Source: Bryobacteraceae bacterium (lineage in GTDB: Bacteria > Acidobacteriota > Terriglobia > Bryobacterales > Bryobacteraceae). Taken from it: a DNA stretch of 47,462 nucleotides. Positions 7,356 to 32,815 of this stretch are shown here, piece after piece; positions within the stretch are counted from its first letter, which is position 1; every line of letters begins with the position of its first letter. Where the stretch lies: the NCBI GenBank assembly GCA_014860455.1, contig JACZJQ010000131.1, positions 1 to 47,462 of the forward strand, in the 5' to 3' direction. The position numbers and the translations under genes are program-made. The notes below the pieces were generated by a model, which did not search any database, was not told where the DNA came from, and saw only the letters and a program-made list of their open reading frames with translations.

Positions 7356-8357
7356 TCACAGAGACTCAAGCCACTCGATCAGGCCTGAGGGTAGAGCATC
7401 CGCCGGCTGCGTAGGCTGCGGACCAGTTGCGGACTCAAGGGCCTTGCGCTTCATATCCAGATCGGCCTGCACATAAACGTCGGTGGATTTCATGTCCACG
7501 TGGCCCAGGAAATCCTTCACCATCACGAGCGGAACGCCCGACTGAAGAAGGTGCATGCCCTTGGTGTGGCGTAATGTGTGCGGGCTGATTGCAGGGCGCC
7601 CCAGGCTGGGCATTGAACTGGCGGCTTGCCGCAAGTACTTCAGCAGAATGTATCGCGCGCCGTGTCGCCCTAACCGCATGCCTCGCCCGTTCTGGAACAA
7701 CGGTTCCTGGTCATCGATACGGCGACCGTTGGTGGCGAGGAACTTACGAACGAGTTGAGCCGATTGTGGCAGCAAAGGGCATAGCCGCTCACGCCGTCCT
7801 TTGCCACGTAAGCGGACGAATGGGGGCGCATCCAGATGGAAGTCACAAGGCTTCAGGTCAAGAAGTTCCTGGATACGCCCGCCAGTGTCGTAGAGCACGC
7901 TGAGGAGTACGTAATCACGTTCTCCGTGCCGGGCTGTGCGATCAACCTGCGCCAGCAAGTGACCAAGTTCCTGCTCGCTCAGATAGCCCAGTACAGGATG
8001 CAGTGCCTTTTTCGCCGGAATCGCCAGAACAGGGCTGCACAAAGCGGCCAGTGAGGGCTGTTGGCCAGCGATATAACGGAAGAATGTTTGTACGGCGGCC
8101 AACCGCGCATTGCGCGTCCGGACGGTGTTGGTGCGACTGGTTTCCAGATGGCTCAGGAACTCCAGCACCACTGGAGCGTTGAGATCCTCGATGACGAGTT
8201 GATCAACAGAGCGTTTGCACCAGGTTGCCGAGAACCGGAGCAACAGCTTAATTGCGTCCCGGTATGAGGTGCTCGTATGGGGGCTGACGCCTCGCTCCAC
8301 GGCCAGATACCGAAGGAAGAAGGCTGACAACAGGGTGGCGAGCGGTGGGACTTTCAT
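7356..8357 (-). CDS. RIT1 tyrosine recombinase C
   Basis: A 333-residue phage-integrase-family recombinase. The N-terminal SAM-like core-binding domain spans about residues 5-110 (LAVERGVSPHTSTSYRDAI), and the catalytic domain about 125-315. Catalytic residues visible are Arg in DTGGRIQELLDL, the H-x-x-R-H box HTLRHTKGMHL, His in LGHVDMKSTDVY and the following nucleophile Tyr. Its start overlaps the stop of gene B by one base (TGATG). In RIT elements the three recombinases are thought to act together on the element ends. The gene is complete, but the element is damaged. Confidence 0.9.
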   Translation of the reverse strand: MKVPPLATLLSAFFLRYLAVERGVSPHTSTSYRDAIKLLLRFSATWCKRSVDQLVIEDLNAPVVLEFLSHLETSRTNTVRTRNARLAAVQTFFRYIAGQQPSLAALCSPVLAIPAKKALHPVLGYLSEQELGHLLAQVDRTARHGERDYVLLSVLYDTGGRIQELLDLKPCDFHLDAPPFVRLRGKGRRERLCPLLPQSAQLVRKFLATNGRRIDDQEPLFQNGRGMRLGRHGARYILLKYLRQAASSMPSLGRPAISPHTLRHTKGMHLLQSGVPLVMVKDFLGHVDMKSTDVYVQADLDMKRKALESATGPQPTQPADALPSGLIEWLESL

Positions 8358-9355
8358 CAGTGGCTGTCCTCCCGGATGAGATAGCCGAATCGCGCTTGGT
8401 GCCGTCTGGTGATTTCGCCCATGAGGTCGCGGGTCAATTGGAGGTACCGCTGCGAGCTCGCCAATCCGACATGTCCGAGATACGCGGCCAGGAGTGGCAG
8501 CTTGGCGCCGAGGTCGACATTCTGTTCACACCACAGCAGAAGCCGAAGACCCGCAAAAGAATGGCGCAGGTCATGGAGCCGAATGCGGCAATCCGTTGTC
8601 CGTTTGATGCCGGCGATTTTCAACGCGTCATGAAACGCCCCGCGGAGCGCGGTGATGGAATACCGGTCTCCCCGCGGGCTGGGGAATAGCGGTGCGTCCG
8701 GGCGACAGGGCCCGTAGCGCTCTGCTGCAGTGACGCGGCACTGAACAATGCGCTGGACCAGATCCGGTGCGAGGGGCACCAGCCGCGATTTGTCGAATTT
8801 GCTGTGACGGATGCGCAGCGTGCCAGTCTCGAGATCGAGATCCGCCTGCGTAAGTCGCAACAGTTCTCCAGCTCGCAACCCAGCCAGGTAGAGAAGACGC
8901 AACGCGGTGCCAAGAACAGCCGCCCGTATAGGAGACCCCTGCCCCGGCGGAAGTTGGGTACAGGCTTGCAAGAAACGGTTGCCCTCATCTCGGCTGAGCA
9001 CACGCGGCAGGAACTTCTGTCGAACGATCCGCAAGGACCGGCGATCCGGTACGACCACACGGGCATCGTCCAGGCGCAGGAAGCGGCAGACCTCCCGGAT
9101 GAGCGTCAGGCGGTGCGCGCGTGTCGTCTCCGATTCGGCGCCTCTCCGGGCGACGTACTCGTGCACAACTGCGGGAGTGACGAGAGGATCAACTGCGGAC
9201 AGGCGGGTGCTCAGAAAACGGTCGAGGTCACGCAAGCCGCGAACTTCCTCTCGATAGCGGTAACCCATTGCATGCTTCAGGGCGAGGAACCGCGCGAGCT
9301 GTGACGCTAATGGCGAGACGAATCCGCAATCAGACGCTTCCGGTGGTGCGCTCAT
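8357..9355 (-). CDS. RIT1 tyrosine recombinase B
   Basis: A 332-residue tyrosine recombinase, complete. It has an N-terminal core-binding domain (LARFLALKHAMGYRYREEVR) and a catalytic domain with Arg in AGLRAGELLRLTQADLD, HDLRHSFAGLRLL, LGHVGLASSQRY and the terminal Tyr. The ATG at 9355 overlaps the stop of gene A (ATGA), and its own stop overlaps gene C. The order and lengths match the B gene of RIT2 (42759-43718), although the sequences are well diverged. Confidence 0.9.
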   Translation of the reverse strand: MSAPPEASDCGFVSPLASQLARFLALKHAMGYRYREEVRGLRDLDRFLSTRLSAVDPLVTPAVVHEYVARRGAESETTRAHRLTLIREVCRFLRLDDARVVVPDRRSLRIVRQKFLPRVLSRDEGNRFLQACTQLPPGQGSPIRAAVLGTALRLLYLAGLRAGELLRLTQADLDLETGTLRIRHSKFDKSRLVPLAPDLVQRIVQCRVTAAERYGPCRPDAPLFPSPRGDRYSITALRGAFHDALKIAGIKRTTDCRIRLHDLRHSFAGLRLLLWCEQNVDLGAKLPLLAAYLGHVGLASSQRYLQLTRDLMGEITRRHQARFGYLIREDSH

Positions 9356-10111
9356 CGGCTCACCTCCTCTTCGGAGATGGCCACCGTGCGGAGTCCAGCG
9401 AGATCGACGCGGGTATACCCGTATGTGGTGTCGGTGGACGCATGGCCCAGGACATCGGCGATTATCTTCAGTGGGCGCCCGCCCGCCAGCAGCCGTGTGG
9501 CGAGTGTGTGGCGGAACAGGTACATGCCCCGCCGACCAGTTCGTCCGGCGAGGCCAGCGCGCTGAAGGGCTCCTCGCATGTTCGCTATCAGGTTGTTCTC
9601 CGGCGCGAACGGCTCGAACGGCGCACGGTGCCGCAGGAACACGGTGCGGTGGGATGAGACCGGCCGCCCGTTGCGGATGTATTCACTGAGTGCGATTGCC
9701 ACATCAGGCATGAGCGGAAGTGAAAGGGGTCTGCCAGTCTTCAGTTGCCGGAGATCAATGCGTCCGGCACGCCAGTCAATGTCATCGAGCGCAAGCTGTC
9801 GAATATCGCAAGGGCGCAACCCATAGCGGGCAGCCAGCAGAAGGATCGCGTAATCCCGGCGGCCGAGGGCGGTCGATTGGTCCACCCCGGCCAGGATGCG
9901 CCCGACCTCTGCTGCGCTGAGCACATCCGGAAGGTTCATATGCCGATACTGTCGCGGCCTTGGAACTGCATCGCCCAGGGAGTCCGCCACCCCGTATGGC
10001 CCGAAAACTCGAACGGCCTCAAGCGCTTGGGGGTAGCGGGATGTCTGCATACTCAGAAAAGTAGGAACTGTGGAGGTTCTCCTCGAACTCAGAAGCGTCG
10101 ACCTTGAATGG
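9352..10111 (-). pseudogene. RIT1 tyrosine recombinase A, 5'-truncated
   Basis: The catalytic domain is intact: DYAILLLAARYGLRPCDIRQ with the first Arg, MYLFRHTLATRLL, LGHASTDTTYGYTRVD with His and the nucleophile Tyr. Recombinase-like sequence can be followed back only to about AVRVFGPYGVADSLGDAVPR, so most of the core-binding domain is missing. The open frame continues to 10299, but that part is read backwards through an IS3-like orfA and is not real coding sequence. The box before the conserved Arg is Y-x-F-R-H rather than H-x-x-R-H, as in gene A of RIT2. Confidence 0.78.
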
Positions 10112-10340
10112 ACTTGTCCCCAATTTTGAGACACGGGTTTAGACTCAGAAAATCCACGAAGGAGAATCTGAGTCATGGCGGATCCGCGCCGGAAGTTCAC
10201 GCGAGAGTTTAAGGTGGCTGCCGTCCGGCGGCTACAGGCCGGGTTCCCGGTAGGCCGAGTGGCCCGGGAACTGGAAGTCAATCCCAACCAGTTACACACC
10301 TGGCGGCGTCAGTTCGGGGCCAAACCAGACTCCCGCCAAG
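10100..10340 (+). mobile_element. IS3-like element remnant (left end only)
   Basis: A terminal-repeat-like sequence (TGTCCCCAATTTTGAGACAC at 10112-10131) is followed by the start of an orfA on the plus strand. Only about 230 bases remain. On the left it abuts the broken recombinase A, and on the right the IS-like sequence ends at about 10335, ahead of the protease promoter region. Confidence 0.6.
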
Positions 10341-10541: not shown

Positions 10542-12164
10542 ATGGCTAAATCCATTCAGAGTCTGTCGCTGCTTCTCATAACCGCCGCAATCGCCCACGG
10601 TGCGACAAAGGTGGCGCCAGACGTCGAAAAGCTCCCCGCCAGCCAGGCGGCTGAAGTCATCGTTCAGTACAAAAGTAAGCCCTTAGCGGCAACTTTCAGC
10701 AAGGCGCAGGGCTGGGGCGTGTCAATTATGCAGCAATTGCCGCTGATCAAGGCCGCGGTCATGAGCGTTCCTCCAGGAATTCTGAAGAAGCTCGAAACTG
10801 ACCCCGATGTGCTCTACATCAGCCCAAACCGGAAGCTGACGCCGATGCTTCAGTTCTCCCGCGAGACATCGAATGCGAGCATTGCGCAGAACTACGGCTG
10901 GACAGGCAGTGGCGTCGGCGTGGCGGTCATCGACAGCGGCTACACGTCACACTACGATCTCAGCTCGAACGTGGTCTACAAAGAGACGCTCGTTGGCGGA
11001 ACGGCGGACGATGACTACGGACACGGTACGCATGTGGCTGGCATCATCGCCGGTACAGGATCGGTATCAAGCAGCTACAGGGGCATCGCGCCCGGCGCGA
11101 AGCTTATCATTCTAAAAGCGCTGGATGGAAATGGCGGCGGGACCGATGCCGCCGCGATCGCAGCCATCGACCGTGCCATTCAGTTGAAGAGCCAGTACAA
11201 TATCAGGGTCATCAACCTCTCACTGGGCCGTGGCGTCTATGAGAGCTACAAGTTGGACCCGCTCTGTCAGGCGGTCGAACGTGCCTGGCAGGCCGGAATC
11301 GTCGTTGTCGTGGCAGCGGGCAACGAGGGGCGCAACAACTCCCAGGGAACCGCGGGGTACGGAACCGTTCTTTCGCCGGCCAACGATCCGTTCGTGATCA
11401 CGGTCGGGGCCATGAAGGCCAAGGACACCATCTCTCGTGGCGACGATGAAATCGCCAGCTACAGTTCCAAGGGTCCATCCGGCGTCGATATGGTCGTGAA
11501 GCCCGACCTGGTGGCTCCTGGCAACCAAGTGGTCGCGCCGATGCGGACCGGCACGGTGCTGTGGAACAACTACCCGAGCAACAGAGTGGTTCTGACCAAC
11601 TATCTCAGCCAGTACTTCAGGATGAGTGGAACCAGCATGGCGACTCCTGTGGTCGCCGGAGCAGTGGCGTTGATGCTCCAAAAGGAACCGGCCCTGACTC
11701 CCGACCAGGTGAAAGCCCGCCTGATGTTGACGGCGACGAAGAACTTCCCGAGCACGAGCATCTCGACTGATCCGATGTCGGGCATTACTTATACCAGTTA
11801 CTACGACACCTTCACGGTGGGCACCGGATATCTGGATATCTGGGCGGCGATGAACAACACGGTCGCCGTCAGCGGCACAGCCCGGTCTCCCAGCGCGTCG
11901 TTCAACACAAAGGACAACACGGTGAGCCTGGTCTTCCCGGCCGGGGTCACGTGGGGCACGGGCGTGACGTGGGGCACCGGCGTCGTGTGGGGCACGTCGA
12001 ATGTGAGTTCCACGGGTGTGGTCTGGGGGACAGGCGTCGTCTGGGGTACCGGAGTGACCTGGGGCACTGGCGTTGTCTGGGGAACCGGCGTTGTCTGGGG
12101 CACGGGGGTGACCTGGGGAACCGGGGTGACGTGGGGCACTTCAGAAGTGCTAGGGGAGAAGTAG
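10542..12164 (+). CDS. Secreted subtilisin-like serine protease 1 with W-G-T-G repeats
   Basis: 540 residues from the ATG at 10542; GGAGG lies 13 bases upstream and the start gives a signal peptide (MAKSIQSLSLLLITAAIAHG). The inhibitor-I9-like propeptide (about 30-105) is followed by an S8 domain with the full catalytic set: Asp131 (VAVIDSG), His164 (GHGTHVAG), the oxyanion Asn in [11 protein letters not shown] and Ser365 (SGTSMATP). From about residue 469 to the end are ten W-G-T motifs in hexapeptides (V-T/V-W-G-T-G). It is the first of three tandem paralogues, with 37 bases to the next. Probably exported, self-processed and active outside the cell; the role of the repeats is unknown. Confidence 0.9.
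   Translation: MAKSIQSLSLLLITAAIAHGATKVAPDVEKLPASQAAEVIVQYKSKPLAATFSKAQGWGVSIMQQLPLIKAAVMSVPPGILKKLETDPDVLYISPNRKLTPMLQFSRETSNASIAQNYGWTGSGVGVAVIDSGYTSHYDLSSNVVYKETLVGGTADDDYGHGTHVAGIIAGTGSVSSSYRGIAPGAKLIILKALDGNGGGTDAAAIAAIDRAIQLKSQYNIRVINLSLGRGVYESYKLDPLCQAVERAWQAGIVVVVAAGNEGRNNSQGTAGYGTVLSPANDPFVITVGAMKAKDTISRGDDEIASYSSKGPSGVDMVVKPDLVAPGNQVVAPMRTGTVLWNNYPSNRVVLTNYLSQYFRMSGTSMATPVVAGAVALMLQKEPALTPDQVKARLMLTATKNFPSTSISTDPMSGITYTSYYDTFTVGTGYLDIWAAMNNTVAVSGTARSPSASFNTKDNTVSLVFPAGVTWGTGVTWGTGVVWGTSNVSSTGVVWGTGVVWGTGVTWGTGVVWGTGVVWGTGVTWGTGVTWGTSEVLGEK
11946..12149 (+). repeat. 18-bp coding repeats for V-T/V-W-G-T-G hexapeptides (protease 1)
   Basis: Ten copies of an 18-base unit encode V-[T/V]-W-G-T-G, with one irregular unit (NVSSTG) after the third copy. 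Synonymous positions differ between copies (ggc/ggg/gga, acg/acc), so the peptide rather than the DNA appears conserved. Confidence 0.85.
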
Positions 12165-12201
12165 GATGGACCGGCGCTGGGATCACAGAAAGGACAGTGA
12201 C

Positions 12202-13980
12202 ATGACACGCAAATCTCTGAAATTCATCTCTACCTTCTTATCGATTTGCCTTGCGCAGGCCATCGCGGGATCCCCGAAGATCGCCCGCGACCTCGGAGAC
12301 CTACAGCCTGGAACCAAGGTGGATGTCATCATCCAATTCGTCAACCCGGGCTCGGATGCCGGCGCACCCGGGATGGGCGGCGTGAAAAAAGAGGAACTGC
12401 CGCTCATTGGCGCAGCCCTCTACACAATGCCCGTGAACGCACTGGACGCCCTCGCCAAGAACCCGAACGTCCGCTATGTATCCCCCGACCGTCCGGTTTT
12501 CCGGACCCTGGACTACTCCGCGGAGGCCAGCGGGGCTTCGATCGCCCGCACCTACGGCTGGGACGGCAAGGGCATCGGCGTCGCCATTATCGACAGCGGA
12601 ATCGGCACGAGCTTCGATCTTCTGGTGCCGGGTACCCAGACCTCGCGTGTCGTCTATTCGGCCACGTTCACCACCAAAGGGACCGCGGATGAGTTCGGGC
12701 ACGGCACGCACGTCGCGGGCATTGTGGCCGGCAACGGCGCGGCGTCGTCCCCGCTATTCGCGTCGCGCACATTTCGAGGCATTGCCCCGGCCGCGAACCT
12801 AATCAACCTGCGCGTCCTCGACAAGAACGGCGCTGGCACGGACAGCGCCGTGATCAAGGCCATCGACGCGGCGATCAAACTGAAGAAGACCCACAACATT
12901 CGGGTCATCAATCTGTCGCTGGGGCGGCAGGTGATGGAGAGCTACGTCAACGATCCGCTGTGCCTGGCCGCTGAAAAAGCCTGGAAGGCGGGCATCGTCG
13001 TCGTGGTAGCCGCGGGGAACGAGGGGCGCAACAATTCCGTGGGCAATGACGGATACGCAACGATCGCTTCTCCCGCAAACGACCCCTACGTCATCACCGT
13101 CGGCGCGATGAAGACGGTATCGACAGCTTCCCGCGGCGACGACCTCATTGCCAGCTACAGTTCGAAAGGCCCGACGGCGATCGATCACATCGCCAAGCCG
13201 GATCTTGTCGCTCCAGGCAACCGGACCATCTCGCTGGCCAACCTGACTGGCCTGCTGTACTCCAGTTACCCCGGCAACCTCGTTCCCTATACGGATTATC
13301 TGAAAACCAGCTACACCGCCTACTCGCGGTCCTACTACAAGCTCAGCGGAACCAGCATGGCGACCCCAGTGGTCAGCGGCGCCGTGGCGCTGCTTCTTCA
13401 AAAGCAGCCGTCGCTGACGCCGGACCAGGTGAAGGCGCGCCTCATGAAGACCGCGACCAAGACGTTTCCCAGCTATAGCGTGGCGACCGATCCGGTGACG
13501 GGACAGAGCTACAGAAGCCAGTACGACATCTTCACGGTGGGCGCGGGCTACGTCGACGTCTGGGCGGCGCTGAATAACGCCGACCCGACATCGGGCAACG
13601 CCCTCTCGCCAAAGGCGCAGTTCGAGACCTCCACTCAGGGCGTCAGCTTGCTGTGCGACAGCGGAGCGGTCTGGGGCACCGGCGCGGTTTGGGGAACCGG
13701 AGCCGTCTGGGGCACCTGCGCGACAGGCGCGGTTTGGGGCACAGGCGCGGTTTGGGGAACCCAGGTCCTGGTCGCGGGGACCGGAGCGGTCTGGGGCACG
13801 GGCGCGGTTTGGGGTACCCAAACAGCATCGGGCTTCGGCGCGGTCTGGGGTACCGGCGCGGTCTGGGGCACACAGACATCCACTGACTCCGCCAAGGTGA
13901 ACTACACCAGTAGCATGGTCTCGCTGACCGGCATCGGCACGCCCGGGGCCATCTCAGTTGCCATCTACGGAGAGAACTAA
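12202..13980 (+). CDS. Secreted subtilisin-like serine protease 2 with A-V-W-G-T repeats
   Basis: 592 residues from the ATG at 12202, 7 bases after AAAGGA. It has a signal peptide ([20 protein letters not shown]), a propeptide, and an S8 domain with Asp in VAIIDSGIG, His in FGHGTHVAG, Asn in [11 protein letters not shown] and Ser in SGTSMATP. Compared with protease 1, the loop before the catalytic Ser is longer ([20 protein letters not shown]). Nine A-V-W-G-T units occur between about residues 489 and 558, in pairs separated by short inserts such as QVLVAGTG and QTASGFG. About 35 further residues follow the repeats, so the repeats are not strictly terminal here. Confidence 0.9.
13666..13875 (+). 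repeat. Coding repeats for A-V-W-G-T-G/Q (protease 2)
   Basis: Nine units, mostly paired, with an alternating final residue (G, then Q or C) and linkers of 3 to 7 residues. The first position is alanine throughout, whereas proteases 1 and 3 use valine, so the arrays appear to have been homogenised separately. Confidence 0.85.
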
Positions 13981-14018
13981 CGGCCGAGCTCTATCCGGAC
14001 AGTGAAAGGTAAGAAGCC

Positions 14019-15632
14019 ATGAAGTACAACCTATTGAAAACGCTGCTCTTGCCGCTGTTGGTGGCACCGCTGTTCGGCGGGCACACCAAGATGGCCAAGG
14101 ACGTTGACGTCAAGAACGGCGAGAAGGAAGTGGATGTCATCGTCCGTTTCAGCCGCGAGCCCGGCGACAAGGAGGATGCAAAAATCGCCAAGCTCAACGG
14201 GAATACCAAGGCGAAGCTCAGCATCATCAAGGCCGGCGTCTACACGATGAAGGCCAAGAGGTTGCTGGAACTGGCGGACGATCCCGATGTGGAGTTCATC
14301 ACTCCCGACCGCCAGGTGCGGCAGTTGCTCGACGTCACCGCCACAACGGCAGGTGCTGACCTGGCCTGGACGGCCGGCTTCAAGGGCAAGGACGTGGGCG
14401 TGGCAGTGATCGACAGCGGAGTCTCCGATCCCCCCGACCTCGGCTCCCGGATCGCTTACAAGGAAAGCTTTGTGTCTGGGTTGTCCGCTACGGAAGCCTA
14501 CGGCCACGGAACACACGTAGCTGGAATCATCGCCGGGACGGGAAAGGACTCCAGCCAGAAATACCGAGGCCTCGCACCCGAGGCCAGGATCATCAACCTG
14601 CGCGTTCTCAACAACTCAGGTTTCGGTACCGACAGCGCCGTGATCGCCGCAATCCAGAGGGCGATAGCGCTGAAGAACACATACAACATCCGCGTGATCA
14701 ACCTGTCTCTGGGAAGGCCGGTGGTGGAGAGCTACGTCAACGATCCGCTTTGTCAGGCCGCTGAAGCGGCATGGAACGCGGGCATTGTTGTCGTTGCGGC
14801 CGCCGGGAACTTCGGCAGGGACAACACATTCGGCACGGAAGGATACGGCACGATTCTGAGCCCTGGCAATGATCCTCATGTGATCACTGTCGGAGCCATG
14901 AAATCGCAGGCAACCACGCACCGGGGAGACGATACAGTGGCCAGTTACAGTTCCAAGGGGCCGACGATGGTTGATCACATCGTCAAACCTGACATCGTGG
15001 CTCCGGGCAACAGGGTAATCTCGGTGAGCACAAAAGGCGTGAGCCTACTCGAGAAGCTTTTCCCCGAAAACATGCTCGGAGCGGCCTACTTCAGCATGAG
15101 CGGAACAAGCATGGCCACGCCGGTGGTGAGTGCCGCTGCGGCGATCCTCATCGGAAAAGAGCCATCCCTGAGCCCGGACCAGGTGAAGGCCCGGCTCATG
15201 AAGACGGCCTCGAAGACCTTCCCGGCCTCCAGTACGGCCCAGGACCCATTGACGGGCCAGAGCTACACATCCTACTACGACATCTTCACCGTTGGGGCAG
15301 GCTACTTGGACATCACCGCGGCTCTCAGCAACAACGAGTTGGCAATCGGATCAGCCAGGTCACCACAGGCCGTCTATGACGCAGCATCAAAGACCGTGAA
15401 CATCGTAACCGGGTCCGGAGTCACATGGGGAACCGGCGTCACCTGGGGCACGGGGGTCGTGTGGGGAACCGGCGTGGTTTGGGGGACTGGCGTCGTGTGG
15501 GGCACTGGTGTTGTTTGGGGGACGGGAGGCAATCCCTCCGGCACTGGCGTGGTCTGGGGCACTGGTATCGTTTGGGGCACGGCCAACCCCGCGGGAGAGT
15601 CCCTGGATGTAGCAAGGTTCGGCGAGAACTGA
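14019..15632 (+). CDS. Secreted subtilisin-like serine protease 3 with W-G-T-G repeats
   Basis: 537 residues; the ATG at 14019 follows AAAGG. It has a signal peptide (MKYNLLKTLLLPLLVAPLFG), an I9-like propeptide (EVDVIVRFSREPG to FITPDR), and an S8 domain with Asp in VAVIDSGVS, His in YGHGTHVAG, the oxyanion Asn in VVAAAGNFGRDN and Ser in SGTSMATP. Eight V-T/V/I-W-G-T-G units lie at about residues 468-522, interrupted once by GNPSGTG, with a short polar tail after them. It lies 38 bases after protease 2 and 46 bases before the next gene, consistent with one operon. Confidence 0.9.
   Translation: MKYNLLKTLLLPLLVAPLFGGHTKMAKDVDVKNGEKEVDVIVRFSREPGDKEDAKIAKLNGNTKAKLSIIKAGVYTMKAKRLLELADDPDVEFITPDRQVRQLLDVTATTAGADLAWTAGFKGKDVGVAVIDSGVSDPPDLGSRIAYKESFVSGLSATEAYGHGTHVAGIIAGTGKDSSQKYRGLAPEARIINLRVLNNSGFGTDSAVIAAIQRAIALKNTYNIRVINLSLGRPVVESYVNDPLCQAAEAAWNAGIVVVAAAGNFGRDNTFGTEGYGTILSPGNDPHVITVGAMKSQATTHRGDDTVASYSSKGPTMVDHIVKPDIVAPGNRVISVSTKGVSLLEKLFPENMLGAAYFSMSGTSMATPVVSAAAAILIGKEPSLSPDQVKARLMKTASKTFPASSTAQDPLTGQSYTSYYDIFTVGAGYLDITAALSNNELAIGSARSPQAVYDAASKTVNIVTGSGVTWGTGVTWGTGVVWGTGVVWGTGVVWGTGVVWGTGGNPSGTGVVWGTGIVWGTANPAGESLDVARFGEN
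15420..15584 (+). repeat. 18-bp coding repeats for V-V/T-W-G-T-G (protease 3)
   Basis: Eight units: two V-T-W, then five V-V-W and one I-V-W, with a seven-residue break (GNPSGTG) after the sixth. Codon use varies between copies. Confidence 0.85.
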
Positions 15633-15678: not shown

Positions 15679-17094
15679 ATGCCGAAAAAGGCCAAAGCAT
15701 TCGTCGCCGTCGTCATCCTGCTGGGCGTTTGCACGGCGGTCGTGGCCGCTGCGAGTTGGCGTGCCGTCCCGAGCCTCGAGCGAATCGCAATCTATGTCAC
15801 CCTGACCGCCATTGCGTCGATGGTCAAGCTCCGTCTTCCGGGATTGGACGGAACCTACTCACTCAACTCCATCTTTCTGTTGGGCGGGGCGGTTTACCTC
15901 ACCTTGCCGGAGGTCGTACTGGCGGCTATCGCCGGGGTCCTGGTCCAATCCTACTTTGGAGCAAAGAAACGGCCGGCCCTGTCTCAGACTCTGTTCAACC
16001 TTTCAAACGAGTGCTTCAGCATTGCTCTTGCCAGCCTGGGACTGTCCTTTCTTGTTCACCAGGGCGTCATGCCGTTCCGGCCTGCCCTGCTGGCGGCCGC
16101 AGCGGCGGTCTACTTCGTGCTGAACACCGGCCTGGTGTCGGGCATCCTTAGTCTGCTCGGGGGCGGAGAATTTCGAACAGTCAACAAGCAGTGGTACTCG
16201 CAATCCTTCCCGTATTACCTGTTGGGGGCAGCCTTCGTCGGCCTGCTGCCCGTGGAAGGGCGCCCCATCGATCTTGAGGCCTGGGCCGTGATCGCACCCA
16301 TCGCCTACTTGGCGCATTTCTTCTGTGGGCTGGCTCAACGGGCCGTCAAAGTCGAGGATTCCGGCTCGACGGATTCGGGTGAAATCCCTTCTTTGGCCAA
16401 GGCCTTCACCGGTGCCGTGGCCGTGGCTTCGGCTTCCTTCCTGGTCTACGCGGTGCTTCGCGCGGGGCAGGTCGACTCGACCTGGTTTGCCAGTTATTTC
16501 GTCCTCGCGCTTCTGGCCGCAACTTGGAAGGTGAAACTGCCCGGCGCCAATGGGACCGTCTCGCTTCACTACGTGGTCGTTCTCGTGGCTATCGCGTCCG
16601 CCGGCCTCGCCGAAACATTGGTTCTCGCAGCTGCCGGCCCACTTGTCCAATCCTACTGGCGGGCACGATCAAAGCCCAGACCGGTCCAAGTTGTCTTCAA
16701 CGTGGCGGCGATGGTCGTCAGCGCTGGCTTGGCCTACTCCTTCTGCCGGATTCTGGCTTGGCCCGTCCTGCAGCAGTCCCTGCTGACACTCATTACCTGC
16801 GCCGCCGTGATCCAGTTCCTGGGCAACACGGTTCTAGTCTCCAGCGTGATCTCGCTTGTGGAGAAGCAGAGCGCCTTCGCACTCTGGCGAAACGTGTATT
16901 TCTGGGTCTTCCCCATTTACATGGTGGGCGCAGCGGCGGCCGCCGTCATGGTGGCCACGGCACGTTCGGCAGGGTGGGCGGCCTCTCTCCTGATCCTGCC
17001 GTTGATGGTGATGGCCCAGGTCGCCTATCGCACCCAACTCACAGGCCTACACCAATTCGCGCCCGCCGGCAAGCCCGGCGGATCCGTGGCCTGA
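15679..17094 (+). CDS. Membrane protein with two tandem copies of a multi-helix sensor domain
   Basis: 471 residues, almost entirely hydrophobic helices. It is an internal duplication: half one (about 20-225) and half two (about 240-455) share K-V/L-R/K-L-P-G-x-x-G-T-x-S, then L-V-Q-S-Y, then F-N, then N-T-x-L-V-S-x-I-S-L, then F-P-x-Y-x-x-G-A. The same domain forms the N-terminus of the HD-GYP/GGDEF protein downstream. It has no output domain. I know no named family with certainty; it resembles the MASE-type integral membrane sensors fused to c-di-GMP enzymes. Being 46 bases after protease 3, it is probably co-transcribed with the proteases. The start at 15679 has only a distant AGAGGG upstream. 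Confidence 0.75.
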   Translation: MPKKAKAFVAVVILLGVCTAVVAAASWRAVPSLERIAIYVTLTAIASMVKLRLPGLDGTYSLNSIFLLGGAVYLTLPEVVLAAIAGVLVQSYFGAKKRPALSQTLFNLSNECFSIALASLGLSFLVHQGVMPFRPALLAAAAAVYFVLNTGLVSGILSLLGGGEFRTVNKQWYSQSFPYYLLGAAFVGLLPVEGRPIDLEAWAVIAPIAYLAHFFCGLAQRAVKVEDSGSTDSGEIPSLAKAFTGAVAVASASFLVYAVLRAGQVDSTWFASYFVLALLAATWKVKLPGANGTVSLHYVVVLVAIASAGLAETLVLAAAGPLVQSYWRARSKPRPVQVVFNVAAMVVSAGLAYSFCRILAWPVLQQSLLTLITCAAVIQFLGNTVLVSSVISLVEKQSAFALWRNVYFWVFPIYMVGAAAAAVMVATARSAGWAASLLILPLMVMAQVAYRTQLTGLHQFAPAGKPGGSVA

Positions 17095-17140: not shown

Positions 17141-17237
17141 GTCCGAAGGGGCCGAAGCGGACGATTTGACCGCCAACGCGCCAGGGTAGAGCGCAATATC
17201 CAATTCAGTATCAATGTTTTGCGGCTCATCTGGGCGA

Positions 17238-17253
17238 TGGCCAACAGATTGCA
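17238..17253 (+). promoter_or_regulatory. Sigma-54 (-24/-12) promoter of the HD-GYP/GGDEF gene
   Basis: TGGCCAACAGATTGCA has TGGC, then GG-N10-GC spacing, and a perfect TTGCA. The predicted start near 17264 falls on the GGAGAG ribosome-binding site of the ATG at 17277, the same short-leader geometry as at 10497. Confidence 0.6.
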
Positions 17254-17276
17254 TAATCAACCTCGGAGAGCAGGAG

Positions 17277-19730
17277 ATGAAGAAAGCCGCAACATTGTAT
17301 ATCGCATGGATCATCGTGTCTGGCATGGGCGTGCTCGGCTACGCTCTCAGCAGTTGGCAGCCGAAGATGGTCTCCCGGTTGGTGCTCTTCACCCTCATCA
17401 CGATGGTGGGCTCTCTCATGAAGGTCAGGTTGCCGGGAATCACCGGCACCATGTCCGTCTACTTCTTGTTTCTCCTGGTGAGCATCACTCAGTTTTCCAT
17501 GCCGGAAGTCATGTTGATAGGGACCTCCGCCGTTCTACTGCAGTGCTATTGGCGCACCAAGAATAGACCAAAGCTCCATCAGGTCCTTTTCAATGTGGGC
17601 AGCACTGCGATCGCTATCCACTACTCCTTCAAGGTCTATCATTCGGTCTTCATGCAGAATTCTGAATTTGGGCTCCTGGTGCAGGTCACCGCGACATCGG
17701 TGATCTTCTTCGCTCTCAACACCGGGCTGGTTTCAGGGGTGGTCGCCCTAACCGAGGCAAAGGCCATCCACAAGATCTGGTATGAGTGCTATTTCTGGTG
17801 CTTCCCGTATTATCTTCTCGGAGCCCTGCTGGCGGTTGGATTTAGATACGCGACCGACGCCTTCGGCTGGCGGTCCACATTGCTGTTGTTCCCAGCCGTG
17901 TACATCGTTTACTACTCCTACCGGCTCTATCTCGGGAAACTGGAAGCTGAGAAGGACCATGTTCAACAGGTGGCGTCGCTTCACCTCCGCACGATCGAAG
18001 CCCTCGCCCTGGCCATCGACGCAAAGGATCACACGACTCACGAGCACCTGCGCAGGGTGCAAACCTTTGCCACGGAGATGGGTAAGGAACTCGGTCTGGC
18101 GAAGGAGGAACTAGAAGCGCTCGAAGCCGCTTCGATGCTGCACGATATCGGCAAGCTTGCGGTGCCTGAGCACATCATCTCGAAACCCGGAAAGCTCACT
18201 CCTGAAGAGTTCGAGAAGATGAAGATCCACCCGATCATCGGGGCGGAAATCCTCGAGCGCGTCGAATTCCCCTATCCTGTGGCGCCGATTGTACTTGCAC
18301 ACCACGAGAGATGGGATGGCAGCGGATACCCATACGGTCTGAAGGGTGAGGAGATCCCGGTAGGGGCGCGCATCCTTTCGGTGGTGGATTGCTTCGATGC
18401 TCTTGTATCGGACCGTCCTTACCGGCGCGCCATGCCGGTGGGCGACGCCATCAAGCATATCGAGCAGGAGGCCAAAAAGAGCTACGACCCCGAAATCGTC
18501 GCTCTACTGAAAAAACGGTTCAAGCAGTACGAGACAATGATGACCGCCCAGGCCCTGAAGCTGGACCCAGGCAGTTTGTCACATGGAACGAAGGTGCAGA
18601 ACGGCGAGTCGCCCGCGGCAGGCTTCGAGAGTTACTCCTGCAAGCGGAAGGGGATCTCGAAGGAGGATGCCTCCGATTTCCTGCAGTCCATCGCCGGCGC
18701 CCGTCAGGAAGCCCATGCTCTGTATGAACTCGCCCAGAGCCTGGGCAGCAGCCTCAAATTGCACGACACGCTCTCAATGCTCGCGGGCAGGCTGAGCAAA
18801 CTGGTGCAGTACGACGCAGTCGCGGTCTACGTGCTCAGCGGCGAGATGCTGAAGCCCGAATATGCCATTGGTGTGGACGCGCGTTTCCTCTCCGCCCTGG
18901 AGATCCCGCTTGGCCAGGGGCTTTCCGGGTGGGTCGCCGAAACGCGCACGTCCATTCTGAACGGGAACCCCAGTGTTGAAGCAGGATACTTAAATGATGT
19001 GCGGAGGATCTGCACGCTGAAGTCCGCGCTTGCCGTTCCGCTTGTGCATGATGACCGTGTGGTTGGCGTCCTCGCGCTGTATAGCACCGAGCGCGACGCC
19101 TTCAGCCGCGATGAACAGCGAGTCCTGCAATCGATTTCCCCAAAACTCGCTATGTCGATAGCCAACGCCGTTCAGTACGAACAGGCCGAGTCTTCGGCTA
19201 CCGTTGATTACTTGACCGGCCTGCCAAACGCACGCGCTCTCTTCCTGCGGTTGGATGCCGAGGTGAACCGCTGCACCCGTTCCAACGAGGCGTTGGCCGT
19301 CGTTGTCTGCGACCTCGACGACTTCAAGCAGGTGAACGACCGGTTTGGGCACCTTTCGGGGAATGAAGTCCTGAAAGCCATCGCCACGGAGATGGAGGCG
19401 GGTTTCCGCAACTGCGACTATCTTGCCCGCATGGGAGGGGACGAGTTCGTTATGCTCATCCCCAACATCCAGGCTGCAAGCCTCTTCTCGAAGCTCGCCA
19501 GCGTTGAACAGACCGTGGCAAGGGTCTGCCGCAAGGTCTGCGGTGAGGATGTGATCTCATTGAGTTCAGGAGTTGCATTCCTCGGAGTCGACGGGTCACA
19601 CGCCGACGATCTGCTGGCGGTTGCCGATCGGCGGATGTACGAAAACAAGAGCTGCGCAAAACAGCGGCGCTCCCTGTTGAAGCTGATGGGCGAGAAGACG
19701 TGGCAGGGCAAAGTACAATACATCGCATGA
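17277..19730 (+). CDS. Membrane HD-GYP / GAF / GGDEF c-di-GMP turnover protein
   Basis: 817 residues from the ATG at 17277 (GGAGAG 7 bases upstream). The order is: membrane sensor domain (1-215) homologous to the preceding protein; HD-GYP phosphodiesterase (about 235-430) with MLHDIGK and HHERWDGSGYPYGLKG; GAF (about 477-638); GGDEF cyclase (about 641-810) with intact MGGDEF near 720. An RxxD inhibitory site (RNCD) sits five residues before GGDEF. Both catalytic halves look intact, so the protein may make and degrade c-di-GMP, switched by membrane and GAF inputs. It is convergent, with a 20-base gap, to a PilZ gene. Confidence 0.93.
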   Translation: MKKAATLYIAWIIVSGMGVLGYALSSWQPKMVSRLVLFTLITMVGSLMKVRLPGITGTMSVYFLFLLVSITQFSMPEVMLIGTSAVLLQCYWRTKNRPKLHQVLFNVGSTAIAIHYSFKVYHSVFMQNSEFGLLVQVTATSVIFFALNTGLVSGVVALTEAKAIHKIWYECYFWCFPYYLLGALLAVGFRYATDAFGWRSTLLLFPAVYIVYYSYRLYLGKLEAEKDHVQQVASLHLRTIEALALAIDAKDHTTHEHLRRVQTFATEMGKELGLAKEELEALEAASMLHDIGKLAVPEHIISKPGKLTPEEFEKMKIHPIIGAEILERVEFPYPVAPIVLAHHERWDGSGYPYGLKGEEIPVGARILSVVDCFDALVSDRPYRRAMPVGDAIKHIEQEAKKSYDPEIVALLKKRFKQYETMMTAQALKLDPGSLSHGTKVQNGESPAAGFESYSCKRKGISKEDASDFLQSIAGARQEAHALYELAQSLGSSLKLHDTLSMLAGRLSKLVQYDAVAVYVLSGEMLKPEYAIGVDARFLSALEIPLGQGLSGWVAETRTSILNGNPSVEAGYLNDVRRICTLKSALAVPLVHDDRVVGVLALYSTERDAFSRDEQRVLQSISPKLAMSIANAVQYEQAESSATVDYLTGLPNARALFLRLDAEVNRCTRSNEALAVVVCDLDDFKQVNDRFGHLSGNEVLKAIATEMEAGFRNCDYLARMGGDEFVMLIPNIQAASLFSKLASVEQTVARVCRKVCGEDVISLSSGVAFLGVDGSHADDLLAVADRRMYENKSCAKQRRSLLKLMGEKTWQGKVQYIA

Positions 19731-20025: not shown

Positions 20026-21060
20026 CTAGTATTGCATCACGATTCCAGGAGCCCTGTCTTGAAGGGCCTGCAGTTTTCGGCGCAGCGTCCTTGAGGAAAT
20101 GCCCAGAACCTCGGCTGATTTCTCCTGGTGCCCGTTCATCTGTCTCAAGACCATCTGGATCAGGGCGAGCTCGGTCTTTTCCAACAGTCCGGTCGAGACA
20201 TCGGGATCCTCAACCTCCCCGATGCGCGTCGCCGCGAGTAACCGTGCCAGGCTGCCGGCGAACTGCTCGCCTTGAGGTTTGTGCTCTCGGATCTCGACGG
20301 GAAGATCGGCAGGGCCGATTAGGCGGCCCGGCCTTGAGCCGCTTAGACCGAGAACGAAGTTCCGCAATTCGCGGACATTCCCGGGCCAGGAGTAGTTCAT
20401 CAGGAGCTCAGAGGATTCCTCGGAGTATTCCACATCGATGCTCTGCATCCGGCTGAATTCAAAAAGCAGCGCGAGAATGTCGCTTCTTCGGTCACGTAGG
20501 GGAGGAATCTGGAATTGAACCTGCGCGAGCCGGTAGTAGAGGTCCTTCCTGAATCGGCCTGCATCGACCAAAGCTCGTAAATCGCTGTTCGTGGAAGCAA
20601 TCACTCTGACATCGGCGCGGTACTTTTTCACGCCTCCCAGCCGGTAGTACTCCCCCGAATCAAGCACGCGCAGAAGTTTCACCTGCAGTCGGAGATCCAG
20701 ATCGCCAACCTCATCAAGAAGCAGCGTCCCTTTCGACGCTAGGTCAAACATCCCAGGTTTCGCATGGTCGGCCCCGCTGAAGGCGCCCTTTTCGTAGCCA
20801 AACAACTCGCTCTCGAAAAGATGTTCCGGAACCGCCCCGCAGTTGATGTCCACCCAGGGCCCTGAGCTACGGCGTGAGAAGTAGTGCACCGCCCGGACGA
20901 CCCCCTCTTTTCCGACCCCGGATTCCCCCGTCACGAGAACGGCCGCGTCACAGATCGCAACGTCTCTCACTCGCCTCAAAATGTCTTTCATCTCGGCGCT
21001 GGCGTAGATGACTTTGGCGCCGAGGAAGTCATAGCAGTCGAATGGAGGCGAGCCTACCAT
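20026..21060 (-). CDS. Orphan sigma-54-dependent transcriptional activator (AAA+, Fis HTH)
   Basis: A 344-residue enhancer-binding protein without a receiver or other sensory domain; only about 20 residues precede the AAA+ core. It has Walker A GESGVGKE (about 45-52), the sigma-54 contact loop as GAFSGA (GAFTGA in most relatives), Walker B GTLLLDEVGD, and the arginine-finger region YRLAQVQFQIPPLRDR. A Fis-type helix-turn-helix (EKSAEVLGISSRTLRRKLQA) ends the protein. It is upstream of the PilZ gene and is the natural candidate to drive the two -24/-12 promoters at 10497 and 17238. With no sensor domain, it may be controlled by a partner protein. Confidence 0.92.
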   Translation of the reverse strand: MVGSPPFDCYDFLGAKVIYASAEMKDILRRVRDVAICDAAVLVTGESGVGKEGVVRAVHYFSRRSSGPWVDINCGAVPEHLFESELFGYEKGAFSGADHAKPGMFDLASKGTLLLDEVGDLDLRLQVKLLRVLDSGEYYRLGGVKKYRADVRVIASTNSDLRALVDAGRFRKDLYYRLAQVQFQIPPLRDRRSDILALLFEFSRMQSIDVEYSEESSELLMNYSWPGNVRELRNFVLGLSGSRPGRLIGPADLPVEIREHKPQGEQFAGSLARLLAATRIGEVEDPDVSTGLLEKTELALIQMVLRQMNGHQEKSAEVLGISSRTLRRKLQALQDRAPGIVMQY

Positions 21061-21331
21061 ATTGGCAGTGTAGGAGACTTCGCCTTGTTAAGCCATCCGG
21101 GCCACGCCTTAGAAATCGCCCGACTGCTTACTTAGTACTGGATCTGCCACCACGCCGATGTTCGCCAAGAACTGAGGCAGAATCACTGGCCCAACTGCTC
21201 CGCCGAATCAGGCTCCTTCGGCCCCGGGCTTGCCATGTGCAGGGACATTCCTCGTTTCCTGGGATTGCGGACTTATCGGTGATGCCCGTGCAGTCTGGCT
21301 AAAGACCTTAGGCGCCGAGGCCGATAGACCT

Positions 21332-22222
21332 ATGAGGGTGTGCACCGCCATGTGGAAGCTGATCACTCGTACCCTATTGATCGGATTGATCGGAGGATTC
21401 GCCACGGCAACCCTGGTCCGGATCGCCCCGGGCTACGGGATGAGCGATGAGCAGTTGGATGCCAGGCGCACTGAGGCAAACCTCCGTTCCGTCGAAACCA
21501 GGCTGGCCAGAGAGAGGAGTGTCCTTCGTTACTACGGCGCTTTTCTTTTCAACTACGCTCGGGGAGACTGGGGGGAATCTCCCCTGTTCCAGCGTCCCGT
21601 TCGGACTCTCATCGCGGAGCGGACCGCAGTCACTCTGACTGCCGTGCTGTTCGGACTCAGCACTGGGTGGGCGTTTGCCCTCGCCTTCGGTGTGTTTGGC
21701 GGATTCCTGCCGACAGCCGCCTTCGCTGGACTCGCCAGGTCAAGCGCGCTTCTCCTTCAATGCACGCCGGCGGTTGTGGTGGGACTCCTACTACTGTCCT
21801 CCGGGGCGCGCGGACCTTTCGCGTGTGCCATCGCAGTCGGTCTCGTCCTCTACCCGCGGTTAGTACTATATGTAATCAATCTCACCCGCGAGGCCACGGC
21901 AATGCCTCATGTCCTCACCGCGAGGGCCAAAGGCCTCGTTAGCCGCCTGGTTCTCTTCAGGCATGTTCTTCCCGTCATTGTTCCAGAGTTGCTTGCGCTT
22001 GCCGGCATTAGCGTCAGCATGGCGCTTAGCGTGGCAATTCCGCTGGAAATGATTCTCGACATTCCAGGCCTCGGCCAGCTCACTTGGCAAGCGGCGTTGG
22101 GCCGCGACATGAACCTGCTCGTCAACCTCACCATGTTCATCAGTCTTGCTGTCTCGATCTCGAATGCGGCGGCTGAATGGACCGCCGCGCGCTGGTCACG
22201 GGTAGAGGCCGGCACAAGATGA
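21332..22222 (+). CDS. ABC transporter permease, DppB/OppB type
   Basis: 296 residues from the ATG at 21332; an in-frame ATG at 21350 is equally possible. This is the inner-membrane permease of a peptide/nickel-type importer. It has an N-terminal helix, a periplasmic-side segment (ERSVLRYYGAFLFNYARGDW) typical of DppB, and five further helices. The cytoplasmic EAA loop is seen at TARAKGLVSRLVLFRHVLP. It is the first of four overlapping genes and is divergent from the sigma-54 activator. The N-terminus before 21332 is unlikely to be translated. Confidence 0.87.
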   Translation: MRVCTAMWKLITRTLLIGLIGGFATATLVRIAPGYGMSDEQLDARRTEANLRSVETRLARERSVLRYYGAFLFNYARGDWGESPLFQRPVRTLIAERTAVTLTAVLFGLSTGWAFALAFGVFGGFLPTAAFAGLARSSALLLQCTPAVVVGLLLLSSGARGPFACAIAVGLVLYPRLVLYVINLTREATAMPHVLTARAKGLVSRLVLFRHVLPVIVPELLALAGISVSMALSVAIPLEMILDIPGLGQLTWQAALGRDMNLLVNLTMFISLAVSISNAAAEWTAARWSRVEAGTR

Positions 22223-23049
22223 CGGCCGCCTTGGAACGAAGAGCCCGCTTGGCTAGCGCCGCCTTTCTTGCCACACTGGCGATTGCAGCGCTGGCTGCTG
22301 ACTGGGTTGCGCCATACCAGCCGGAAGAGCAGTTTCGCGAAACAATAGCGGCCGCCCCGTCGAGCCGGTTTTGGCTGGGAACTGACGACTTGGGCAGGGA
22401 TCGCTTCTCAAGACTCATCCACGCGACGCGTATCTCACTCCTGATTGCCCCCGCGGCGGCGCTGCTCTCTGTTGTTCTTGCCGCTTCCGCGGGCATAGCC
22501 GCGGCAACCCGGACAGGCCTCATTGGGAATCTCCTCATGGGTGCGGCGGACATCACGCTGTCGCTTCCTTGGCTGCTCCTGTTGTTGACTGTGCGCTCGC
22601 TGCTTCCGTTGGACGTCACTCCCTGGGCCTCGCTGACTCTGACTTTCGCTCTCCTTGGCGCAATTGGCTGGGCTGGTCCCGCACGAGTCATCAGAGCGGC
22701 CATACGAGAACTCCTGGTTTCGGACTTCGTCATCTCGGCGCGAGGACGGGGGCTTTCCAAATCGCGCGTCTTCCTGTGTCACGTTCTTCCAAGCGCAAGA
22801 CCCGTAGTGGCAGCCCAATTCTGGTCCGCGGTTCCCGTGTTCGTTCTTGCCGAAGCCAATCTGAGCTTCCTCGGTTTAGGCGTCACTGAGCCCGCGGCAA
22901 GCTGGGGAACGATGCTGAAGGAAATGGAGACTGTTCTGGCCGTCGGAGGGAACCTTCTTAACCAATACTGGGTCTTCGCCCCGGCGGCCTTGGTTTTCGT
23001 CTCTGTTCTCTGCCTCACGATTCTGTTTCCATCGAGGATTTCGACATAA
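22219..23049 (+). CDS. ABC transporter permease, DppC/OppC type
   Basis: 276 residues from the ATG at 22219, which overlaps the preceding stop (ATGA). It has an N-terminal helix, the family motif WLGTDDLGRDRFSRLIHATR, the EAA loop (SARGRGLSKSRVFLCHVLPS) and the FLGLGVTEPAASWGTML segment near the C-terminus, all characteristic of DppC/OppC permeases. It pairs with the DppB-like permease. Its stop overlaps the start of the binding-protein gene (TAATG). Confidence 0.9.
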   Translation: MTAALERRARLASAAFLATLAIAALAADWVAPYQPEEQFRETIAAAPSSRFWLGTDDLGRDRFSRLIHATRISLLIAPAAALLSVVLAASAGIAAATRTGLIGNLLMGAADITLSLPWLLLLLTVRSLLPLDVTPWASLTLTFALLGAIGWAGPARVIRAAIRELLVSDFVISARGRGLSKSRVFLCHVLPSARPVVAAQFWSAVPVFVLAEANLSFLGLGVTEPAASWGTMLKEMETVLAVGGNLLNQYWVFAPAALVFVSVLCLTILFPSRIST

Positions 23050-24680
23050 TGCGCCTTCGTATAATCATCGCCGCCCAGTTTCTTGGCATCGCCTGTGCTT
23101 GGGCGCAGCAACCCGTCAGGGGAGGCGCGCTGCGTCTGGCCATCCAGGCTGAACCGAGAAACCTCGATCCTGCCCAGGCCTCCGACGAACCCTCCGAGCT
23201 TGTCCGCTATCTGACGGGCGGAGTGCTGATTCGAATGAATCGTCTGACGCAGAGACTGGAGCCGGCTCTGGCCGAGCAGTGGAGCTACGACACGGCTCGC
23301 CGGACACTCACCCTGCGGCTCCGTGCGGGAGTCCGCTTCTCCGACGGGACGCCTTTCAATGCCGCCGACGTATGTCACACTTTCAGCCATCTTCTCGATC
23401 CTGCGGTGGATGCCCCGAGCGCGGAGCCTTTCCGCTCGGTGAAAGGGGGAACACGGTGTGAAGTCAGGGACGCGCGTACAGTCGCCCTGCGGTTTGGCGA
23501 GCCAATCGCCGCGGTCGAGCGCCTCCTCGACGACGTTGCCATCCAATCCTCGCGGTCGAAAGACCAGAGCCGGCCAACATTGGGCCCGTTCTTCATCAGT
23601 GATCGCCAGCCGGGCGCCTCACTCGTCCTGCGCCGCAACCCGAACTACTGGAGGCGCAGCCCGTCTGGGACCCAGCTTCCGTATCTGGATTCCATCCGGC
23701 TGGATATCCAGCGGAATAGGGACTCGGAACTGGTCAGGTTCAGAGCCGGGGAGCTCCACCTCATCAACAACCTCGACTCTCAGTTGTATGAGCGGCTGAA
23801 ATCACAGCTTCCCGGCTCCGTACGGGACCTCGGCGTCTCCAATGACACCGAACAGCTCTGGTTTAATCAGATTGCCGCAGCGCCTCTACCCGCACACAAA
23901 AAAGTCTGGTTCCGCTCCACGGAGTTCCGCAAAGCGGTCTCGGAAGCCATCAACCGCAACGACATAGCGCGGGTTGTGTTCAAAGGCCACGCCACTGCCG
24001 CCGTCGGGCCGGTCTCCTCCGCAAACCATGCATGGCTCAACGCGGCGATTGAAACGCCCCGGCTGAACCTCAAATCGGCATTGAACCGCCTTTCGGGTTC
24101 TGGCTTCCGACTCCGAGATGGGATCTTGTACGACAGGGCGGGCAACCCAGTCGAATTCTCGCTGATTACCAACGCTGGCAACCGCAGCCGCGAACAGATG
24201 GCGGCGCTCATCCAAGCCGACCTGAAGAGGATTGGCATCCGAGTGACCATAGCGCCGCTCGACTTCCCTGCACTCATCGGCCGCATCACCAGGACATTCG
24301 ACTATGACGCCTGCTTGCTGGGCCTCGTCATGACCGATCTCGATCCCATCGCACAGACCAATGTGTGGCTCAGTTCAGGGCCCCAGCATCAATGGAACCC
24401 CTCGCAATCCAGTCCTGAAACCCCGTGGGAAGCCGAAATCGACCGAATGATGCACACGGTGGCGACCGAAGCGAACGCGGCTGCTCGAAAACGCGCATTC
24501 GATCGCGTGCAGCAGATTATCGCCGAGAATGTGCCGTTTATTTACCTGATAAACAGGCACGCGCTGGTGGCGGTTGCCCCGGACGTGCGCAACGCTCAAC
24601 CTGCAGTTCTGCGGCCACAGACTCTATGGAACATCGACCAGTTGTGGCTTGCCAGCCCGGCGCAGGTGCCGAAACGATGA
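23049..24680 (+). CDS. Periplasmic solute-binding protein, family 5 (DppA/OppA type)
   Basis: 543 residues with an N-terminal signal (MRLRIIIAAQFLGIACAWAQ). The processing site looks like signal peptidase I (AWA-QQ) rather than a standard lipobox, so it is probably soluble. SBP_bac_5 features: GGALRLAIQAEPRNLDPAQA at the start, LRLRAGVRFSDGTPFNAADV, and C-terminal RVQQIIAENVPFIYLINRHA. The ligand is probably a peptide or similar; the sequence does not say which. It overlaps both neighbours in the transporter operon. Confidence 0.9.
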   Translation: MRLRIIIAAQFLGIACAWAQQPVRGGALRLAIQAEPRNLDPAQASDEPSELVRYLTGGVLIRMNRLTQRLEPALAEQWSYDTARRTLTLRLRAGVRFSDGTPFNAADVCHTFSHLLDPAVDAPSAEPFRSVKGGTRCEVRDARTVALRFGEPIAAVERLLDDVAIQSSRSKDQSRPTLGPFFISDRQPGASLVLRRNPNYWRRSPSGTQLPYLDSIRLDIQRNRDSELVRFRAGELHLINNLDSQLYERLKSQLPGSVRDLGVSNDTEQLWFNQIAAAPLPAHKKVWFRSTEFRKAVSEAINRNDIARVVFKGHATAAVGPVSSANHAWLNAAIETPRLNLKSALNRLSGSGFRLRDGILYDRAGNPVEFSLITNAGNRSREQMAALIQADLKRIGIRVTIAPLDFPALIGRITRTFDYDACLLGLVMTDLDPIAQTNVWLSSGPQHQWNPSQSSPETPWEAEIDRMMHTVATEANAAARKRAFDRVQQIIAENVPFIYLINRHALVAVAPDVRNAQPAVLRPQTLWNIDQLWLASPAQVPKR

Positions 24681-28986: not shown

Positions 28987-30060
28987 TCAGGCGGCGCGCC
29001 GTTCGTACCGATGGTGGAGCCCGCCGACCTCCGGGATCGCGACCACCGGCCCGAGTTCCGGCGACTCGACGGGTCGTGATTCCGGCGCATCCTTGGCCAG
29101 CGACAGGTGCGTCCTCGACTCGTGATAGTAAGCCACGAACGATTTCATCTGCCGGTACAGCGAGGCTGTGTTGAAGACGATCACGTGATCAAGGCACTCG
29201 CGACGAATCGTGCTGATCACCCGCTCCACGTATGCGCGTTGCCAGGGCGACCGAGGCGCCGACAGCACTGGCTTGATGCCCATCTCCCGGACTTGCTTGT
29301 TGAAGACGTCGCCGAAGATCCGGTCACGATCTCGCAAGAGATACCGCGGTGCGGTTTCCCACGGAAATGCTTCGCGGAGTTGCTGGGCAGTCCACTCCGC
29401 CGTGGGATGGGCAGTGACGTTGAAATGGACGATCCGCCGCCGGTCGTGAGCGAGCACCAGGAAGACATAGAGGACCTGGAAACGAACCGTCGGCACGGTG
29501 AAGAAGTCCACCGACACCATGGTCTTGACGTGGTTCTCCAGAAACATCCGCCAGGTCTGCGACGGCGGCTTACGACGGCGGACCATGTACTTGCCGACGC
29601 TGGTTTCACCGACGTTGATCCCGAGCTTGAGAAGCTCGCCATGGATGCGCGGTGCTCCCCAGAGTGGATTCTCACGGCTCATCCTGCGGATCAGTTCCCG
29701 AATGTCTTTCGGGACCGCCGGCCGTCCAGGCTGCCTGCGCCGGACCTTCCATGTCCAGAACAGCCGGAAGCCCTTCCGGTGCCAGCTAATGACAGTTTCT
29801 GGTTTGACGATGATGAGAACCGATCGCCAGTCGCTCCAGATTCCGCAGAGCCAGACCCAAAGGAGCCGATCGGACGAGTTGAGTTTCGGCCGCTTCACAG
29901 AGCGCTGCAGAACAGCGAGTTGGTGTCGGAGCGCGAGATTCTCCAAGTGCAGTGCGGCTCGGGATTTGAATGTCGCGGACGCCGTGACGCCCAGCGCGCC
30001 GAGCGTGCTCGTGGCCAAATGGAGGAAATAGCGAATGAGGCGCAAGCTCCATGTTCTCAT
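28987..30060 (-). CDS. Integrase-core (DDE) transposase, single ORF
   Basis: A 357-residue protein of the rve-domain transposase type. It has an N-terminal helical region (LHLENLALRHQLAVLQRSVK), a helix-turn-helix-like segment (PKDIRELIRRMSRENPLWGA, then PRIHGEL) and an RNase-H-fold core. The catalytic triad is visible: Asp in MVSVDFFTVPT, Asp in LLRDRDRIFGDVF and Glu in SPWQRAYVERVISTIRREC. I could not define terminal repeats or a target duplication. Its 5' end abuts a truncated peptidase gene on the opposite strand, which suggests that a past insertion or deletion removed the peptidase start. Confidence 0.85.
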   Translation of the reverse strand: MRTWSLRLIRYFLHLATSTLGALGVTASATFKSRAALHLENLALRHQLAVLQRSVKRPKLNSSDRLLWVWLCGIWSDWRSVLIIVKPETVISWHRKGFRLFWTWKVRRRQPGRPAVPKDIRELIRRMSRENPLWGAPRIHGELLKLGINVGETSVGKYMVRRRKPPSQTWRMFLENHVKTMVSVDFFTVPTVRFQVLYVFLVLAHDRRRIVHFNVTAHPTAEWTAQQLREAFPWETAPRYLLRDRDRIFGDVFNKQVREMGIKPVLSAPRSPWQRAYVERVISTIRRECLDHVIVFNTASLYRQMKSFVAYYHESRTHLSLAKDAPESRPVESPELGPVVAIPEVGGLHHRYERRAA

Positions 30061-32790: not shown

Positions 32791-32815
32791 CCCTAGTCAC
32801 CTCCATCCCGCCGGA

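Follow-up and report, generated by a model that had tools for sequence, protein, structure and literature searches.

Secreted subtilisin-like S8 peptidases have been reported widely across Acidobacteriota genomes, and extracellular peptidases have been proposed to aid nitrogen uptake (PMC5900883). In this work, we analyzed a window of 47,462 nucleotides, from a contig of a Bryobacteraceae bacterium, which carries three S8 peptidase genes in tandem, here called P1, P2 and P3. The solved structure nearest to the AlphaFold2 model of P3 is pro-Tk-SP of Thermococcus kodakarensis (3afg). Both combine a prodomain with a catalytic domain of the subtilisin fold in which the catalytic set is complete. 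The structure aligns only to residues 33-404 of P3, however, and the aligned part has no counterpart of the arrays of six-residue units (hexads) that P1, P2 and P3 carry near their C-termini.

Two described kinds of protein come close to these arrays. The sorting and accessory domains found at the C-termini of exported bacterial proteases share with them the C-terminal place on a presumably exported protease, but no Pfam or NCBIfam model for sorting, anchoring or carbohydrate binding fits the tails studied here. Left-handed beta-helix (LbH) proteins, such as Hexapep proteins, the YdcK solenoid, gamma carbonic anhydrase and LpxD, share the six-residue period, the aliphatic residues and the turns of Gly, Asp, Ser and Asn. 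The arrays differ from them in having Trp at one fixed position, in lacking a match above a curated cut-off, and in a similarity that does not depend on the direction of the sequence; the low-confidence AlphaFold2 models of the arrays also contained no beta-helix. The arrays are real, undescribed in the family databases and literature searched, and widespread in one phylum.

Three tandem S8 peptidase genes and their neighbourhood

P1, P2 and P3 are arranged head to tail, with 37-38 bp between the ORFs as called (Table 1). All three matched the Peptidase_S8 profile at 1.7e-51 or better. In an alignment of P1-P3 with two distant relatives, D132, H163, N264 and S364 (in the numbering of P3) were invariant. 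These are the catalytic Asp, His and Ser with the oxyanion Asn, that is, the full S8 set. By profile and by residues, the three proteins belong to the S8 family, as proposed in the initial annotation, and are predicted to be active proteases. Their N-termini, read by eye, resemble signal peptides and suggest that all three are exported.

Table 1. Features of the array-bearing S8 peptidase locus (window coordinates).
Feature	Position	Strand	Remarks
P1 S8 peptidase	10542..12164	+	PF00082 6.3e-57; fervidolysin-type prodomain PF22148 4.6e-05; signal-peptide-like N terminus
P1 array	11943..12140	+	3 units GV[TV]WGT, hexad SNVSST, 7 units; tandem repeat of period 18
P1 C-terminal tail	12141..12161	+	SEVLGEK
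P2 S8 peptidase	12202..13980	+	PF00082 4.1e-54; in-frame alternative ATG at 12166
P2 array	13663..13872	+	9 GAVWGT units, grouped 3+2+2+2
P2 C-terminal tail	13873..13977	+	End AIYGEN
P3 S8 peptidase	14019..15632	+	PF00082 1.7e-51; AlphaFold2 model nearest pro-Tk-SP
P3 array	15417..15581	+	6 units, linker GGNPSGT, 2 units; pLDDT 26-42
P3 C-terminal tail	15582..15629	+	End ARFGEN
471-aa protein with likeness to two MASE-like membrane domains	15679..17094	+	No Pfam match; relatives directly downstream of some other array-bearing S8 genes
MASE9 - HD-GYP - GAF - GGDEF protein (c-di-GMP turnover)	17214..19730	+	Pfam; synteny
Sigma-54 dependent activator	20026..21060	-	Homologues near other array-bearing S8 genes; putative role with the proteases
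ABC transporter: two permeases and family 5 (peptide-type) binding protein	21230..24680	+	Homologues near other array-bearing S8 genes; putative role

In a tree, the partner of P1 was a gene from a different Bryobacteraceae genome (support 99/95), P2 and P3 were placed elsewhere, and the position of P3 was not settled; the bootstrap had not converged. The three genes are therefore probably old paralogues, and a recent local triplication is not favoured.

Genes for peptide transporters and MASE/HD-GYP proteins recur near array-bearing S8 genes of other Acidobacteriota. A MASE-like gene was directly downstream, by raw count, in only 11 of the 43 array-bearing S8 genes with room for it. We infer that the locus serves to degrade protein outside the cell and to take up peptides, with control linked to c-di-GMP.

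Several other genes in the window were recorded. Directly upstream of P1 on the reverse strand (7356-10299) are three overlapping tyrosine recombinase genes, in an arrangement like that of recombinase-in-trio (RIT) elements. A transposase-like integrase core gene (rve_3; 28987-30060) and genes for a [NiFe] hydrogenase large subunit, a HycI-like maturation protease and an iron-sulfur FAD oxidoreductase (30786-39195) are on the same strand.

The arrays and the wider hexad family

The sequence WGT occurs 10 times in P1, 9 times in P2 and 8 times in P3, where composition predicts 0.10-0.17 occurrences. The initial annotation had counted 8 to 10 units at the ends of the proteases. The numbers agree, but short inserts interrupt every array (3+7 units in P1, 3+2+2+2 in P2 and 6+2 in P3), and the arrays do not terminate the proteins, since short tails ending in GEK, GEN and GEN, respectively, come after them. 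The description of the unit as x-V/T-W-G-T-G was broadly right. The hexad is x-V/T/I-W-G-T, with isoleucine in a single unit, GIVWGT, of P3.

Between units, pS was 0.66 in P1, 0.50 in P2 and 0.72 in P3, and pN was 0.089, 0 and 0.089. The pN/pS ratios were thus 0.135, 0 and 0.124. The codons have diverged while the residues stayed nearly constant, so the peptide of these arrays is under selection, as the initial annotation had argued from codon variation.

The W-G-T-G motif turned out to be the form found in P1-P3 of a broader hexad family on acidobacterial S8 peptidases. Over 71 arrays, the consensus was [SNGT]-[AVIL]-[VLI]-W-G-[TDSN]. The number of units differs widely among proteins, some having about 4 and others more than 30. 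In some relatives (L251, L253), Phe, Leu or Val replaced Trp at the same hexad position.

Arrays were sought both on other S8 proteins and on non-proteases, and nearly always they were on S8 peptidases. In a DNA-pattern scan of genome contigs, the true cases among the matches listed were almost all Acidobacteriota S8 peptidases. A profile built from WGT arrays was run against a sample of 297 Acidobacteriota genomes and matched 34 of them, in 31 of 167 genera. These matches included WGD, WGN and WGE flavours, and nearly all were in frames with an S8 core. With a mixed array profile, S8 proteins with hexads were found in three Planctomycetota genomes (L225-L227), and no convincing case was seen in the samples of Actinomycetota, Verrucomicrobiota, Chloroflexota, Myxococcota and Pseudomonadota. 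These samples gave either no array match or only matches that were rejected, in frames that had no S8 core and resembled low-complexity DNA or unrelated proteins.

When S8 genes were ranked by similarity of the core alone, 16 of 32 frames had exactly spaced W hexads under a strict pattern of two or more spacings of six. Many other frames in this ranking had variant or interspersed hexads by eye, such as GVLVSD, DSIFWGQ and NIVWGN. One Bryobacteraceae genome (G403) had at least 7 array-bearing S8 genes.

Some matches concerned other kinds of gene. A 225-aa frame (L206:734-1408) fused an integrase-like N-terminal part with a short NIVWGD array, perhaps through insertion into an array-bearing S8 gene. 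In L192, L198, L199 and L206, a gene that by eye resembles GNAT-type acetyltransferases adjoined S8 genes of the NIVWGD type. PHROG 7964, a phage family of unknown function, matched a WGD array (L248:2332-2916; 1.4e-10) and weakly the P3 tail (window 15360-15629; 0.019). Either a repeat composition in common or the presence of similar hexads in phage proteins may explain these matches.

Over the 71 arrays, identity at the variable positions was 0.77-0.80 between units of one protein but 0.21-0.40 between units of different proteins. Within arrays the median pS was 0.56, and between proteins pS was 0.62. As the within-array value is near the between-protein value, recent duplication is not favoured as the source of uniformity, and its simplest reading is selection for uniform units. 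Avoidance of DNA repeats through codon choice may have added to the divergence. Uniform units with diverged codons are as expected if the units pack together or bind one repeating ligand.

Of 108 interruptions of 7-17 residues in 56 proteins, 57 span exactly 12 residues, in 41 of the proteins; the cases are not all independent because some inserts are common to related proteins. The gap is thus usually one hexad long, and the register of six survives the loss of Trp.

Fold and possible role of the arrays

The initial annotation had suggested that regular Trp spacing could make a beta-solenoid. The kept register and the uniformity of units within a protein support, indirectly, a regular six-residue structural repeat, and a solenoid is plausible. 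Structure prediction gave no confident fold: in the AlphaFold2 model of P3 (46 sequences), the prodomain and the catalytic domain were modelled well, but the array residues 471-531 had a pLDDT of 26-42. For the L164 array alone, the mean pLDDT was 37.

We tentatively prefer a model in which the hexads stack into a beta-solenoid-like rod that serves as a stalk or binding surface on exported, scavenging subtilases. The proteases would be synthesized with an N-terminal prodomain behind a signal peptide and would scavenge extracellular protein. The C-terminal appendage would consist of repeated six-residue strand-turn units, each opening with a small or turn residue and a pair of aliphatic residues, followed by Trp and Gly, and closing with Thr, Ser, Asp or Asn. 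In the compact rod, equivalent residues, Trp above all, would form ladders, and hexads without Trp and the G-E/D tail would continue the register as degenerate or capping units. Such a rod could be a protease-resistant stalk or binding surface that tethers the enzyme to the envelope of the cell, to an insoluble substrate, or to itself. The catalytic residues, the arrays, the selection on the peptide, the spread of the family, the register and the synteny are observed; export, a beta fold, stacked units and a role in anchoring or binding are inferred. A more specific form, which we hold with greater reserve, takes the arrays for a structural module not described before, a hexad solenoid with Trp ladders that serves exported subtilases alone, in Acidobacteriota and a few Planctomycetota. 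Identical rungs within each protein would be selected, the end would be a common cap, and the rod would anchor the enzyme at the surface or bind substrate.

The tail ends in G-[ED] followed by zero or one residue in 35 of 51 proteins. This shared end, the C-terminal place and the confinement to S8 peptidases that are presumably exported and come mostly from one phylum could be explained by a sorting or secretion signal for crossing or attaching to the outer membrane, perhaps removed afterwards. Its role would resemble that of a type IX secretion tail or PEP-CTERM, with unrelated sequence. We consider such a signal unlikely: the wide range in unit number would be unusual for it, and a general signal would be expected on unrelated cargo, whereas the arrays are nearly always on S8 peptidases. 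Known models also gave no match. Over P1-P3, only S8 core and prodomain models of Pfam and NCBIfam matched, and none, with or without an assigned function, covered the arrays. The sole match of the isolated arrays in NCBIfam was a serine-rich model (E 0.97), and the curated sorting, anchoring and carbohydrate-binding models of both databases matched neither arrays nor tails. The view that the repeat fits no known anchoring or carbohydrate-binding module was thus borne out. In the papers searched, we found neither the hexad motif in this context, nor anything relevant on repeats in subtilases, nor the combination of features seen here.

The low AlphaFold2 confidence, the many regularly spaced Trp residues and the freely varying copy number would also suit a flexible, Trp-rich sticky tail, with avidity for an insoluble or hydrophobic substrate and no fixed fold. 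This explanation too seems improbable. A loose tail would need neither the six-residue register kept across segments without Trp nor the conserved aliphatic residues at positions 2 and 3. A loose hydrophobic tail on a protease would, moreover, be prone to self-digestion.

A true LbH domain, with Trp placed beside the core position, looked promising when the mixed array profile was compared with PDB chains. All six matches were LbH, at non-significant E values of 0.65-9.7. The L251 array, in which V replaces W, matched many LbH chains (best E 0.004). Sub-threshold matches to LbH_EIF2B (0.0019) and Hexapep (0.18, 0.026) were found in the L251 and L266 arrays. However, the reversed L251 sequence matched LbH better (1.4e-05), which shows that period and composition drive the match. 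When the letters of each hexad were permuted, LbH chains were not found. The WGT-only profile matched no LbH protein. AlphaFold2 did not build a left-handed beta-helix on the arrays, at a confidence too low to weigh for or against such a coil. No LbH-type profile exceeded its curated cut-off on the P1-P3 arrays, and those on L251 and L266 stayed below theirs. The arrays do have the six-residue period of aliphatic and turn residues of LbH domains, a period that is not specific by itself. After the reversed-sequence control, we rejected LbH as an established assignment, and regard it as quite unlikely. The array profile also picked up a frame with VYGNA-type hexads (L235:1390-2502, reverse strand), which had YdcK-solenoid, Hexapep and Bactofilin matches.

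Excision of the units as repeated core peptides, as in a multi-core peptide precursor, would fit units that are alike in one protein yet differ from protein to protein, but it is very improbable given the lack of a maturation enzyme among the adjacent genes scanned, the lack of an evident processing site between units, and the units without Trp that stay in register.

The data support a six-residue strand-turn period, most likely beta-solenoid-like, and no particular solenoid.

Soils are rich in Acidobacteriota. Should the hexad tail hold the enzyme on the cell or on its substrate, this would account for how such peptidases retain their product close to the cell, and the catalogue would gain a repeat module not described so far. 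With units so uniform within a protein, selection for identical structural rungs can be put to the test.
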